Assembly (NCBI GenBank): GCA_033065855.1
Contig: JAVXUO010001766.1
Coordinates: 124,001-188,000, forward strand
Direction of reading: 5' to 3'
Length of the DNA: 64,000 nucleotides
DNA from: Escallonia rubra
Taxonomy: Eukaryota; Streptophyta; Magnoliopsida; Escalloniales; Escalloniaceae
In this document: positions 22,781-63,915 of the stretch, piece after piece
Layout of the letters: each line of letters begins with the position of its first letter
Numbering within the stretch: the stretch's first letter is position 1
Program-made: the position numbers and the translations under genes
The notes under the pieces: model-generated
What the model saw: only the letters and a program-made list of their open reading frames with translations
The model's database searches: none
What the model was told of the DNA's origin: nothing

Positions 22781-22902
22781 AGCCATCTAGTGAGCATAAA
22801 GTGAACTATTCTTTTGCCTTTTACTAAAGAATACCACGTGCTCGCCATAAACAGTGGCACACGCATCTTTCTAGAGGGTTCTTTCCCTGTGAAATGAGCT
22901 TG
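22781..22902 (+). pseudogene. U5 snRNA pseudogene
   Basis: This matches the U5 copies further on along its whole length and keeps the invariant loop region (GCCTTTTACTAAAGA). The Sm-binding site is lost: GCATCTTTCTAGA replaces GCCTATTTTTGGA. The USE expected 80 bp upstream (22701) is reduced to GGTCAAGCAAC, although a relic of the CAATATG box remains near 22742. It is therefore probably silent. It is the first snRNA relic of the array. Confidence 0.8.
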
Positions 22903-23151
22903 TAAAGTGTATGAGAGAGTTTTTGATTTAAAACTGAGTTCCATTCACACTAGAAGTTGCTCGAGTGGCTTAATCTACAAGAATATGTACATAAGCATAA
23001 ACCTACTAGAGAGGATTATATAAGAAACTTATGTGCTGCCAAATCAAGTTGGCATACGTCAAATTTTGCTTCCAGGGCTCGACACATGTTGTAGATGATG
23101 AATGACGAGGTGATAGCTAGTAATTAAACAAATGTCGGAGCTCAAGCACAT

Positions 23152-23280
23152 ATACTTGCCTGGACGGGGCCAATGGGTGATCAAAACACGTTAGGCTTTG
23201 AAGGGATGTTTGCCTACAGGTCTGCCGAGTGGTGGATCCTGCGTCACAGTTTGTGGCAGAGGAATGCAGGTCCCTGTCAA
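23152..23280 (+). pseudogene. U1 snRNA pseudogene
   Basis: It starts ATACTTGCCTGGACGGGG, so the 5' splice-site recognition region has A to G in ACTTACC. Blocks of stem-loops I-III and the Sm region (CACAGTTTGTGGCAG) can be followed, but there are internal deletions (129 nt against 163) and the final GCGTTCGCGC hairpin is destroyed. No USE is found upstream. Confidence 0.8.
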
Positions 23281-24434
23281 TATCTAAATGAACCATCAGC
23301 AAGTGTACATAATATAACAGGAGCAATAATAAGGCTATCGTGTTAGACCACTAGTTCTAGCCAACACCGCCTAACACATCCAAAATTCAAAGTTTTGAAT
23401 TCATCTGTGAAGTTTATGTTATGTCCTGACGCTTCTCAAAAAGCTTCAAACATATGAATCAACAAATTTATGAACCATGTTTTTCTTAAGATAGTGAATT
23501 CGAAGTTAAAATATTACAAAAAAATATGTATCATCCAATTTACTTGAGGGACATCCACATAGATTTGAACCAAACTGAACCAACCAATTTGAAGACAATA
23601 GACTGAGTCTTAGAGGGAAGATTAATACTCTTTCATCCTGTTTTGAGTCAGAGATCAGCAGGTTGGGAAGCATTATATTATAGCAGACAGATATCCTTTC
23701 AAAATGTAACAGAGTCCACAACAGAGCTAGAAGTTCTTATAGAAATAAACCTGTTCGGTTGGCCATCTGAACTGAACTTCCGTTCTTCTTCTTCCCTGGT
23801 TTTTCTATCAAGTGCTCTTCATTAACTTTTTTATTGGATTATCCAAATCAGAATCCAACATATAGCAACTCAAAAACGTCACTGTAAAACCAAAATATAG
23901 TAAACATAAAACGTTAAAGTGGAACAGTAGTATTGGGGAATTAAGTACTTCTCAAAAACCTTAAAATGGAAGAGTAGCAATCCGAAGACAGTAAACTAGA
24001 ACCTCCTTCCCCGTACTCTTCTCGAAGTCCTGGGTGTTTGGTATAGAGACGAGATCACTCCACTCTATTTTGTTTCGTCGCGTTCTTCAAAGATAACTGA
24101 CATGAACCCTTTTGCTTCTACAAAGCTTCCACTTAAGCATCTATAACAAGCATCACTCCATCAATCTTTCAACCTACATATTCCCCAAATTCATGCGTAC
24201 AGCCAGGGTGCGTGATTGGAGATAGGCCAGTGAGATTCACAATTATGCAAGTGTATTATGATTCAATGCTGAGATTCCATCTCGCATATGCACGCTTCAG
24301 GTCTGATATACATAGTTTAAATTGAGAGATTCTCAACAGTGTAGTGCCTGTTCTAACTTCTAAGAATTTGTAGAGCAAGTCAGCGAGGTCCCTTATGACA
24401 TAGCAATTAATCTTTCAAGGAAGACTTGGCTTTA

Positions 24435-24485
24435 GTCCCACACCGGAGAAGGAATAAAGAAGCAACGTAGACACTACATAAAATG
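24435..24485 (+). promoter_or_regulatory. snRNA promoter (USE + TATA) of U1 copy 1
   Basis: USE GTCCCACACCG at 24435-24445, and a TATA-like CATAAAAT at 24478-24485, about 30 bp before the RNA. The start-to-start distance of 43 bp is of the Pol II class. Confidence 0.8.
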
Positions 24486-24507
24486 ATATGTTAGGGCCCA
24501 AGGAAAC

Positions 24508-24670
24508 TTACTTACCTGGACGGGGTCGATGGGTGATCAAGAAGGTCCATGGCCTAGGTTAGTGACCTCCATTGCACTCTGGAGGGGTGCTCATCTAAGG
24601 TCTACCCAAGTGGTGGAGCCTAAGTCATAATTTGTGGTAGTGGGGGCCTGCGTTCGCGCGGCCCCCTCCA
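24508..24670 (+). ncRNA. U1: U1 snRNA, copy 1
   Basis: U1 pairs with the 5' splice site of pre-mRNA. The recognition segment ACTTACCTG is intact, although the first base of the usual ATAC start is T here. The order is then stem-loop I (GGACGGGGTCGATGGGTG), II, III (CCATTGCACTCTGGAGG), the Sm site AATTTGTGG, and the terminal hairpin GGGGGCCTGCGTTCGCGCGG. It is the only U1 copy here with GG at the end of the Sm site. Its 3' flank (to about 25170) is shared with U1 copy 2. It is likely functional, but the altered 5' base leaves some doubt. Confidence 0.88.
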
Positions 24671-24679
24671 ATATAGAAT

Positions 24680-61594: not shown

Positions 61595-61776
61595 ATTCCT
61601 TTCTCAGCTTTTTGGCTAAGAGTAAGTGCAGTATCTGTTCCTATCAGTTTGAAAAAAACAACTGTTTCAGGCGAAGGTTCTTGGTAACTTACTAAAACGC
61701 AATTCCTATGTCACACAGCCGATGTGGTGAGCACCAAGTTCTTTTGCCTTTTACTAAGATATATCCTGTGTAGAAC
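61595..61776 (+). pseudogene. U2-U5 chimeric snRNA pseudogene, copy 2
   Basis: U2 bases 1-60 (ATTCCTTTCTCAGC, AGTGCAGTATCTGTTCC) and the U2 GGCGAAGGTTCTTGGTAACTT segment are followed by the U5 5' domain (CAGCCGATGTGGTGAGCACC, then TTTTGCCTTTTACTAAG). The U2 Sm site was lost at the join and the U5 Sm site is beyond the homology. GTAGTA is changed to GCAGTA. It shares its junction and the lead-in TTGAGCAAATTA with the copy at 32507. Confidence 0.82.
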
Positions 61777-62482
61777 GGTAAAAACTCCTAATTTGTAAGA
61801 AAGTTGTCGAATAACTGGCTTAATAACTACCCGAAAGTACAATTCAAAGTCGGACACAAACATATAATGCAGGTTAACTCACAATCTGAAGTCATCAACT
61901 TCTTATTTGAACTTGAGCTGCAGTGCCCTTTTTCACTCTAACTGAGTTTCCAGCCTCAAAGCATTATACCCTGGTTTAACTAAGAAAAGCATGAGAATCT
62001 TCTGCCTCGCTTCTTCGTCGAGTTCCTCATGTCCTACTTAATTCATTCATTTCACCGGTATTTGCTAAAAAGGATCTTGTTCTGGGTGCTTGGCTGGAGC
62101 AGCTCTTTCTTTTCGATTCTACAATTGTTGCAACAAGAAAAACCCTGTTTTGGCCTTCAAGGAAGATAAAAACTGGCTCATTCCCTGAAGCACTGGAAAT
62201 GAAAATAAGACCATCAGTCCTTGGGTTCTATTACTATAAGGACCATTCATCTGGAAAAAGTACTCCATGTAAGTATAAAAAATAATCAAGCTACTGGATG
62301 TACCTTACATAGGAAAATTCACAAAGAAAAAATTAATCAATAATATTATTCACAAAGAAAAAAATAATCAATAATATTAGGGTTTTTTGGGTGAAGACAA
62401 CAGAAATAATTAAGAAGTGTGAGCTTAGTGCAACATATTCCAACGTCAAAGGAATGTCATAAAACTATGAGGCTTGGCATGA

Positions 62483-62531
62483 GTCCCGCATCGGGAAAAG
62501 AAGAATGAGGGGTGATAGTCAGAGTATGAAA
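62483..62531 (+). promoter_or_regulatory. snRNA promoter (USE + TATA) of U1 copy 3
   Basis: USE GTCCCGCATCG at 62483-62493 (closest of all to the published TCCCACATCG core at its 3' side) and TATGAAA at 62525-62531, 42 bp apart start to start. The TATA has one base changed. Confidence 0.82.
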
Positions 62532-62555
62532 CAGAAGGATAAAACACAGGTAAAC

Positions 62556-62718
62556 ATACTTACCTGGACGGGGTCAATGGGTGATCAAGAAGGCCCATGG
62601 CCTTGGTTAGTGACCTCCATTGCACTTTGGAGGGGTGCTCGCCTAAGGTCTACCCAAGTGGTGGAGCCTACGTCATAATTTGTGCTAGTGGGGGCCTGCG
62701 TTCGCGCGGCCCCCTCCA
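62556..62718 (+). ncRNA. U1: U1 snRNA, copy 3
   Basis: ATACTTACCTGGACGGGGTC at the 5' end, loops and terminal hairpin as in copy 2, same length. Differences from copy 2 are single bases (CAATGGGTG, GCCTTGGTTAG, GCTCGCCTAAGG). The Sm region AATTTGTGCTAG equals copy 2. Upstream about 100 bp are shared with copy 2, while downstream is unique AT-rich DNA. Likely functional. Confidence 0.94.
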
Positions 62719-63640
62719 ATATACTTATAAGTAGTTATTTAGCATGGCATACATGAATTTTTTATAACATCTCACTATTTGCATTTAAAAGTTTACAAAA
62801 CCAACCATATTCTTATAAGTAGTTATTTAGCATGGCATACATGATGCGTCTTGAAAAATAAAGGTATAGTCTGATTTTTTAAAAAAAAATCAAGATTTAC
62901 ATACAAGTATATATTGTCATTATATGTAGTTACTTACCCTTTAAATTGTGAAAACCGAACATGTAATTATATGTAGTTACTCACCCTTTAACTATTCATT
63001 TGTATCACTTCTTACAAATTTCTTAGAATGCCTAGTGTCACCATTTTAGATAGGTAGTTATGTAACACTAAAATAGGTGTTACACAAAAAAGGTATTTTC
63101 TTTATTTATGGTATAGAAATTAATAGATTGAGAGAAAGATATAAAAGTATAGATTAGAAGATGCAGCATGTAGCATGTGCTAAATTAGACAAAATAGAAA
63201 GTTACGAAAACGTGCAAGTTACTAGTTTAAATGTAGTTATGTGTTCTTGCTTTTATTTTAATTTATTTTATCTGAAAGTGACAAGATTTTAGCTCATGGT
63301 TGCGAAGCGGCATCATTTGGATGTGGTCACTAGTCTTTGCGAATGTTTGTATCGCCAGTGATGCACCGCACCGGATGAAAAAGCGACGGCGTAAAGGAAG
63401 AAAAAAATAGCAGAAAATGAGAATAAAATGATTAAGCTGGGGTCGGAGGATTTTGCAAAGAGGAGATGGAGAGTGCTTATCTGAGAAAGTGATACAGTTA
63501 GAAAAATAAGAGAACCACTTAAAACCTAATCCCACCTGGGATGGCGTTCCCATCAAGCTCCCAAGTTGGAGCGCAAATTCAAGAATCTCAGGGAGATTTG
63601 TGGCCTACCTACGAGAATCCGGCCACAAATAAAGTCATGA
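62719..63640. other. AT-rich spacer with direct repeats
   Basis: A 31-bp word, CTTATAAGTAGTTATTTAGC plus ATGGCATACAT, occurs twice (62725 and 62812), and a TATGTAGTTACT word occurs twice (62924 and 62964). A segment at 63030-63120 resembles the inverted form of 20400-20590. No gene is seen. Confidence 0.5.
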
Positions 63641-63810
63641 AGATAAGTTGAAATTCCAAAATTTGTTGCATTTCACTCAAGAAAACTGAAGCAGTGGCCT
63701 ACATAGTGTCAGTCTAAAGTTAATAGGAAAGTAAAATAGTATCAGAATTCAGTTCTCTTTGATCCTGCTTAGAAGGGAGAAAGAAGCAGGGCTTCAAGTG
63801 TAATATCTGT

Positions 63811-63915
63811 TTCTCAACTTTTTTGGCTACCATCAAGTGTAATATCTGTTCTTATCAATTTAATTTCTTTCTTGTGGGTCATTGCTCCACTTGTTCTCAA
63901 TTAATTTTTTGAGGG
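63811..63915 (+). pseudogene. U2 snRNA pseudogene, degenerate
   Basis: TTTCTCAACTTTTTTGGCTA, CATCAAGTGTAATATCTGTT and TTAATTTTTTGAGGG follow U2 order, with GTAGTA changed to GTAATA and stem II lost. No USE is seen upstream, though a trace of the U2-upstream module is at 63640-63730. The array probably continues beyond the window. Confidence 0.78.

Follow-up and report, generated by a model that had tools for sequence, protein, structure and literature searches.

In the published accounts, plant genes for small nuclear RNAs (snRNAs) are scattered or paired, and animal ones are often organised as single-class arrays. Arabidopsis carries seven U1–U4 pairs, in which U1 is always upstream of U4 at a distance of 180–300 nt, and one U2–U5 pair with a spacing of less than 200 nt (PMC545797). 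Primate RNU2 forms tandem arrays of a single class (PMC4291461), and RNU1 is likewise a single-class array (PMC4802181). Fishes have U1–U2 linked units accompanied by other U genes (PMC4696792). The dinoflagellate Symbiodinium minutum has one cluster of all five snRNAs, while the remaining snRNAs are spread across some 70 locations (PMC4083563); in another dinoflagellate, Amoebophrya, the spliced-leader gene is not part of a spliceosomal gene cluster (PMC7789003). For Coffea, an asterid, family counts are given per class, and no preferential location of non-coding RNA loci is identified in that account (PMC7549347). Here we describe a 64,000-base stretch of the Escallonia rubra genome (positions 124,001–188,000 of contig JAVXUO010001766.1, here C2049; "the window") that carries genes for U1, U2, U4 and U5, the four major-spliceosome snRNAs transcribed by RNA polymerase II (Pol II), in a single co-oriented array.

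As in the Arabidopsis pairs, plant Pol II snRNA genes of different classes adjoin each other in Escallonia and have promoters composed of an upstream sequence element (USE) and a TATA box. Unlike those two-class clusters, the Escallonia arrays combine four classes at kilobase spacing over up to 106 kb and hold most of the copies found, so that the number of classes, the length and the share of copies are new relative to the published plant pairs. The Symbiodinium cluster also unites the four Pol II classes, but it includes U6, which is absent from the Escallonia arrays among the matches listed. The RNU2 and RNU1 arrays similarly provide a high-copy snRNA supply from one locus; however, they consist of one class and evolve in concert, whereas the Escallonia units are mixed, diverged and rich in relics. 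The fish units, although vertebrate, resemble them in that different U snRNA genes are linked and amplified. The first-pass annotation of the window had called the cluster unusual, which is correct as a matter of degree, but the Arabidopsis pairs, the Symbiodinium cluster and the fish units mean that it is not unprecedented. A literature search found no report of a four-class array in a land plant among the papers listed, although its scope excluded most subscription papers and absence is thus not proven.

Promoter-bearing snRNA genes

A scan of both strands of the window with the Rfam 15 covariance models at gathering cut-offs gives 11 snRNA matches (three U1, three U2, one U4 and four U5), all on the + strand, as are five weaker snRNA matches at E≤1. 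This is the check that the first-pass annotation had proposed (RF00003, RF00004, RF00015 and RF00020), and every class scores above its cut-off. U6, U11, U12, U4atac and U6atac have no match in the window at E≤1. Ten of the 11 matches are preceded by a USE (RTCCCACATCG with at most two mismatches) that starts 72–80 bp upstream, together with a TATA-like box. The exception is the U5 match starting at 22781, where the best USE-like site has four mismatches. The annotated set of ten same-strand genes with promoters (three U1, three U2, one U4 and three U5) is thereby reproduced exactly:

24508..24668, + strand, U1 snRNA gene, full length (RF00003, 143.4 bits; USE GTCCCACACCG at −73, CATAAA 31 bp past the USE)
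26712..26902, + strand, U2 snRNA gene (RF00004, 170.4 bits; USE ATCCCACATTG at −72, TATAAA at −32)
31176..31291, + strand, U5 snRNA gene (RF00020, 86.9 bits; USE GTCCCTCATTG at −80)
34823..34938, + strand, U5 snRNA gene (RF00020, 90.5 bits; USE GTCCCACATTG at −80)
37345..37500, + strand, U4 snRNA gene (RF00015, 106 bits; USE GTCCCACATTG at −76)
39073..39263, + strand, U2 snRNA gene (RF00004, 169.2 bits; USE GTCCCAGATTG at −74)
41787..41977, + strand, U2 snRNA gene with the lowest score of the three and extra non-standard pairs in the alignment (RF00004, 144.8 bits; USE ATCCCACATTG at −74)
58707..58867, + strand, U1 snRNA gene (RF00003, 150.6 bits; USE GTCCCACACTG at −72)
60421..60539, + strand, U5 snRNA gene (RF00020, 88.7 bits; USE GTCCCACATTA at −80)
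62556..62716, + strand, U1 snRNA gene (RF00003, 153.1 bits; USE GTCCCGCATCG at −73)

Adjacent intact genes are about 1.5–17 kb apart. The copies are 92–97% identical within the genes, 59–87% in the promoters and 35–88% in the flanks, the lowest flank values being effectively unalignable. The 3′ domain of U4, taken alone, is predicted to fold into two stems flanking AATTTCTGG (−27.9 kcal/mol, z −1.56).

Hidden Markov models (HMMs) were used to find further copies and relics on parts of eight contigs. At the expected promoter distance, 42 of 56 full-length matches have a USE with at most two mismatches, as do 14 of 15 U2 copies masked by a stretch of N, which were counted apart from the full-length ones and whose 5′ parts lie outside the assessment. 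The figures for relics and for random positions are 1 of 52 and 24 of 3,979. In 63 of the 64 promoters that have a USE with up to three mismatches, a TATA-like site is found 29–35 bp past the USE (57 as the first best match and six in a tie with a site at 20–21 bp). The U6 genes serve as a control: in all seven examined, out of at least 26, the USE is at −64 or −65 and the TATA-like site, searched for with a slightly different pattern, is 23–27 bp past it. The distance between USE and TATA box is longer in plant Pol II than in Pol III snRNA genes, and the contrast with U6 is, judging by these motifs, that difference. Spacing of the Pol III kind (20–21 bp) was considered for seven promoters; six of them are the ties mentioned above, in which the alternative site is at 31–32 bp, and one, belonging to the U1 at C2025:96261, has the 21-bp site alone.

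Extent of the array and genome-wide distribution

The assembly searched has 566,129,122 bases in 3,222 contigs; the published draft is described as 566 Mb in 3,233 contigs, assembled with Canu from Oxford Nanopore Technologies (ONT) reads averaging 9.4 kb, polished and purged of haplotigs (PMC10759652). On C2049 the array occupies positions 146,781–253,137, about 106 kb, and all 44 HMM matches are on the + strand; no further HMM match is present in the 15 kb beyond its right end (to 268,000) or in the 22 kb to its left. The array end originally placed at 63915 of the window is thus not the true one, as the array continues to about C2049:253,137. On each of the eight contigs all matches share one strand (123 of 123 in total: C2049 44, C2050 25, C2025 18, or 19 in a scan with a smaller database, C1384 12, C1734 11, C2800 6, C1767 4 and C1599 3). 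The layout annotated in the window, a cluster uniting the four Pol II classes on one strand, recurs on other contigs.

Genome-wide Rfam counts for U1, U2, U4, U5 and U6 are lower bounds, as they comprise the best candidates only (the window U2 at 41787, for example, is missing from the U2 result), and they retain haplotig duplicates (C2800 and C1734 are 99.5–99.75% identical, and C2771 repeats two of their scores) as well as loci cut by contig ends. At least 103 Pol II-class matches exceed the cut-off (29 U1, 31 U2, 11 U4 and 32 U5). Of those listed, 83 are found on 11 contigs that combine at least two classes (26 of 29 U1, 25 of 31 U2, 7 of 11 U4 and 25 of 32 U5), 18 have a contig to themselves and the remaining two, both U1, occur together on another. 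All 12 contigs with at least two listed Pol II-class matches are single-stranded. Three small two-class loci (C2964 with U1/U4, C2067 with U2/U5 and C3104 with U4/U5) are all co-oriented, an outcome that chance alone would produce one time in eight. The U6 copies found are separate: none of the 26 listed matches over the cut-off is on a contig with a Pol II-class match. Six contigs carry more than one of the listed U6 matches, two of them on both strands; C3211 and C3186 hold small U6-only clusters in both orientations.

Gene order within the arrays differs from that in Arabidopsis. Four full-length U4 copies lie in the examined stretches (7 of the 11 U4 matches are outside them), and each follows a U2 or a U2 relic, so that no U1–U4 pair with 180–300 nt spacing was found among them. 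Neither was a U2–U5 pair closer than 200 nt: the nearest full-length or masked neighbours in that order are about 430–750 bp apart, and only fused relics are closer. Two U4 relics do stand behind U1 on the same strand, one at C1767:54470 after a U1 and one at C2050:66778 after a U1 relic, with starts 623 and 760 bp apart. These may be traces of an Arabidopsis-like U1–U4 pair, just as the fused U2–U5 relics may be traces of an older, close U2–U5 pair. In the U4 at C2049:218,840 the promoter is intact, but about 20 nt of the 3′ stem are lost.

Duplicated blocks and origin of the array

Comparison of the window with itself between 22 and 64 kb gives 57 direct and four inverted repeat pairs of at least 100 bp. 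The inverted pairs include the terminal repeats of a Mutator-like element (MULE; 46068/52164, 96.7% identical) and a 97% pair resembling a small transposon. The repeated blocks are 61–89% identical (a 177-bp tandem repeat excluded), which speaks for old, repeated duplication. Four of them share a spacer that usually precedes U5:

30233..31355, + strand, block P1, spacer upstream of U5 and the U5 gene (pieces 73–84% identical to 33.4–35.0, 40.6–41.7 and 59.3–60.6 kb)
33179..34975, + strand, block P2, with U5 (self-comparison)
40411..41656, + strand, block P4, the spacer that precedes U5 elsewhere, here followed by the U2 at 41787 (81.7–88.1% identical to P2)
59253..60598, + strand, block P3, with U5 (self-comparison)

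A block with a fused U2–U5 relic recurs at 32.3–33.0 and 61.4–62.2 kb, and the spacers before and after U2 recur too. With four classes and blocks this diverged, the locus is not a homogeneous tandem array of the RNU2 type. A strict U1–U2–U5 repeating unit was also considered and is ruled out as one simple unit by the block order.

Similar blocks relate the array to other contigs. The match between C2025 and C2049 extends to the left flank outside the array (75–86%), and a piece including the flank was therefore duplicated at some time. C2050 resembles stretches of C2049 in inverted orientation (69–98% identity). C1384 and C2049:179.6–197 kb are 95–98.7% identical, with 96–99% on both sides of an extra segment of about 0.9 kb in C1384 (154,136–155,038), which carries a full-length U2 with its promoter. 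Copy number therefore still changes, here by a recent gain or loss.

The explanation we favour, with a probability of roughly 0.85, is that the array consists of separate Pol II-type U1, U2, U4 and U5 genes amplified through direct duplication of segments, with copies being born and dying. Each intact gene, with its own USE and TATA box at plant Pol II spacing, would be an independent transcription unit, although which particular copies are transcribed we can only infer. A founder cluster, presumably mixed from the start, would have been enlarged by repeated direct duplication of segments, followed by loss, decay and transposon insertion; related arrays made of the same blocks are present elsewhere in the genome. 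Co-orientation would be inherited from this growth, and selection would not be needed for it once the founders pointed one way. The role of the array is most likely gene dosage for the abundant Pol II snRNAs.

Several observations weigh against this reading. A USE with at most two mismatches is missing from 14 of the 56 full-length matches, and seven still lack one when three mismatches are allowed; some full-length copies, by this measure, do not look active. The U1 promoter at C2025:96261 has only the TATA-like site at 21 bp, the TATA boxes of U5 are weak (CAATAT), and the first base of the U1 at 24508 is T instead of the A shared by the Rfam consensus and 16 of 20 aligned copies. The 3′ element CA(N)3-10AGTNNAA is found exactly in none of the ten window genes and in 2 of 71 full-length or masked copies on the eight contigs; accepting either two or three N raises the latter to 19 of 71. 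The genes are nonetheless assigned to the plant Pol II U-snRNA type because they match the covariance models and have the USE–TATA spacing. Conservation of pairing points both ways. In favour of the reading, two-sided changes that keep the pair occur in 6 of 51 predicted pairs across 20 of the 22 full-length U1 copies with a USE (two C2800 copies were excluded as haplotigs); against it, covariation contributes little to the folding energy of U1 (−1.03 of −64.44 kcal/mol). The U5 copies vary little, with a compensatory change in 1 of 37 predicted pairs (15 of 16 copies aligned, the C2800 copy being excluded). Finally, block order differs between copies, so that no simple repeating unit is provable, and several homologies span little beyond promoter and gene, which whole-segment duplication alone does not explain; transfer of small cassettes or gene conversion may also be at work.

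A different view of the same layout is that Escallonia has consolidated its Pol II spliceosomal RNA genes into a small number of co-oriented loci and sorted out U6, and that selection maintains clustering and co-orientation because the locus coordinates expression and assembly, rather than these being a passive by-product of duplication. The concentration of 83 of the 103 listed Pol II-class matches on multi-class contigs and the absence of all 26 listed U6 matches from contigs with a Pol II-class match agree with it. But direct duplication alone yields both clustering and co-orientation; since direct duplicates inherit their orientation, a shared strand carries less weight as evidence than it might seem to. 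Small clusters consisting of U6 exist as well, and the comparison rests on one plant genome. We regard such selection as rather unlikely, and have equally little confidence in its more specific form, in which a dense Pol II locus gathers the machinery for snRNA transcription and 3′ processing as well as Cajal bodies and the Pol III-transcribed U6 is therefore kept apart, even though RNU1 and other snRNA loci in human cells are described as associating with Cajal bodies (PMC4802181). That all 123 HMM matches follow one strand per contig would also suit a single long transcript processed into several snRNAs. This is scarcely credible, given that all ten intact window genes and 49 of the 56 full-length matches (up to three mismatches) have promoter motifs of their own, and that neighbouring intact genes are separated by kilobases and, in one case, by a 6.1-kb MULE.

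The truncated and chimeric relics, U2–U5 fusions included, could be taken for retroposed pseudogenes that landed together. The intact copies, however, have promoters, some have over 1 kb of flank in common, and the fused relics belong to a block of about 0.8 kb that recurs at both places, which means that at least this block was copied as DNA; an origin of the array by retroposition is most improbable. An assembly artefact, in which uncollapsed haplotypes or misjoined repeat contigs mimic a mixed array, deserves attention in an ONT/Canu draft with the read length given above, where leftover haplotigs such as C2800 and C1734 do exist and inflate the genome-wide counts. The identity of the window blocks is, however, far below haplotype level, and the mixed co-oriented arrangement is found again on contigs whose block content differs. 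On each contig the total of N is divisible by 66, which fits the 15 masked U2 copies, and no assembly gaps were seen in the examined stretches. Misassembly of the window array is thus unlikely, and an artefact as the source of the mixed layout has very little to recommend it.

If separate genes were multiplied by duplication as proposed, the divergence of the blocks and the abundance of relics suggest that this essential multi-copy RNA family evolves by birth and death. The Escallonia genome is a natural setting in which to ask whether clustering affects the dosage and stoichiometry of snRNAs and the assembly of Cajal bodies. Loci of this kind would be invisible in per-family counts of draft genomes.

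Relics, mobile elements and other content of the window

HMMs built from the ten window genes find, at E≤0.001, ten relic pieces at eight places in the window, in agreement with the first-pass count of at least ten relics:

22781..22896, + strand, U5 relic, full length and above the Rfam cut-off (RF00020, 57.8 bits), without USE and with an altered Sm-site region in the alignment
23152..23276, + strand, U1 relic with an internal deletion (Rfam 38 bits, HMM 44.8 bits)
32506..32642, + strand, fused U2–U5 relic, U5 piece from 32596 (HMM 15.3 and 17.3 bits), inside block 32287–33034, which matches 61372–62168
36191..36331, + strand, U2 relic without the first 51 nt and promoter, no USE (HMM 129 bits)
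38125..38168, + strand, U2 5′ relic (HMM 18.5 bits)
57568..57631, + strand, U2 3′ relic (HMM 44 bits)
61596..61770, + strand, fused U2–U5 relic, U5 piece from 61721 (HMM 49.3 and 21.2 bits)
63821..63919, + strand, U2 relic (HMM 47.4 bits)

The weakest piece scores 15.3 bits, compared with a best score of 9.9 bits in ten simulated 64-kb sequences of equal composition. On the minus strand there are four U2 and two U5 matches, all of 11.8 bits or less and overlapping copies on the + strand, because snRNA stems are self-complementary.

A mobile element interrupts the array:

46068..52164, + strand, MULE inside the array, ends approximate (120-bp terminal inverted repeats 96.7% identical; MULE domain with E 9.7e-16 in open reading frame 48207–49826)

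This frame encodes 539 residues. Over 38% of the length, the transposase shares 90% identity with an E. herrerae protein, whose own best match in the present genome is 91–92% identical; a related protein is matched 126 times across this genome. A Pfam scan that covered 14 of the 64 open reading frames of at least 80 residues within the array, and 20 of 110 in the whole window, gave a match for the MULE transposase only. As far as tested, the annotated absence of interleaved protein genes other than mobile elements holds.

A search for an exact U2 pattern returned no match in viral contigs. A shorter pattern was found in two contigs of bacterial genomes, one with U2 and a weak U1-like match of 24.2 bits (L009) and one with U2 at its end (L010); both look like eukaryotic contaminants.

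The 177-bp tandem repeat (3.6 copies, 25802–26440) is situated just 5′ of the U2 at 26712, and related 75-bp pieces are found 3′ of the U2 at 39073. A minus-strand open frame of 261 residues without a Pfam match overlaps it. To the left of the array, 13621–14843 is a long stretch of 34–73-bp tandem repeats, and a fragment resembling eukaryotic large-subunit rRNA (5209–5349, 34.2 bits, below the cut-off) overlaps a 41-bp tandem repeat. A piece resembling a miniature inverted-repeat transposable element is present at 28582–28731 and 30131–30232; its part 28582–28683 has a 97% inverted copy, and 28680–28731 gives weak matches to microRNA models on both strands.

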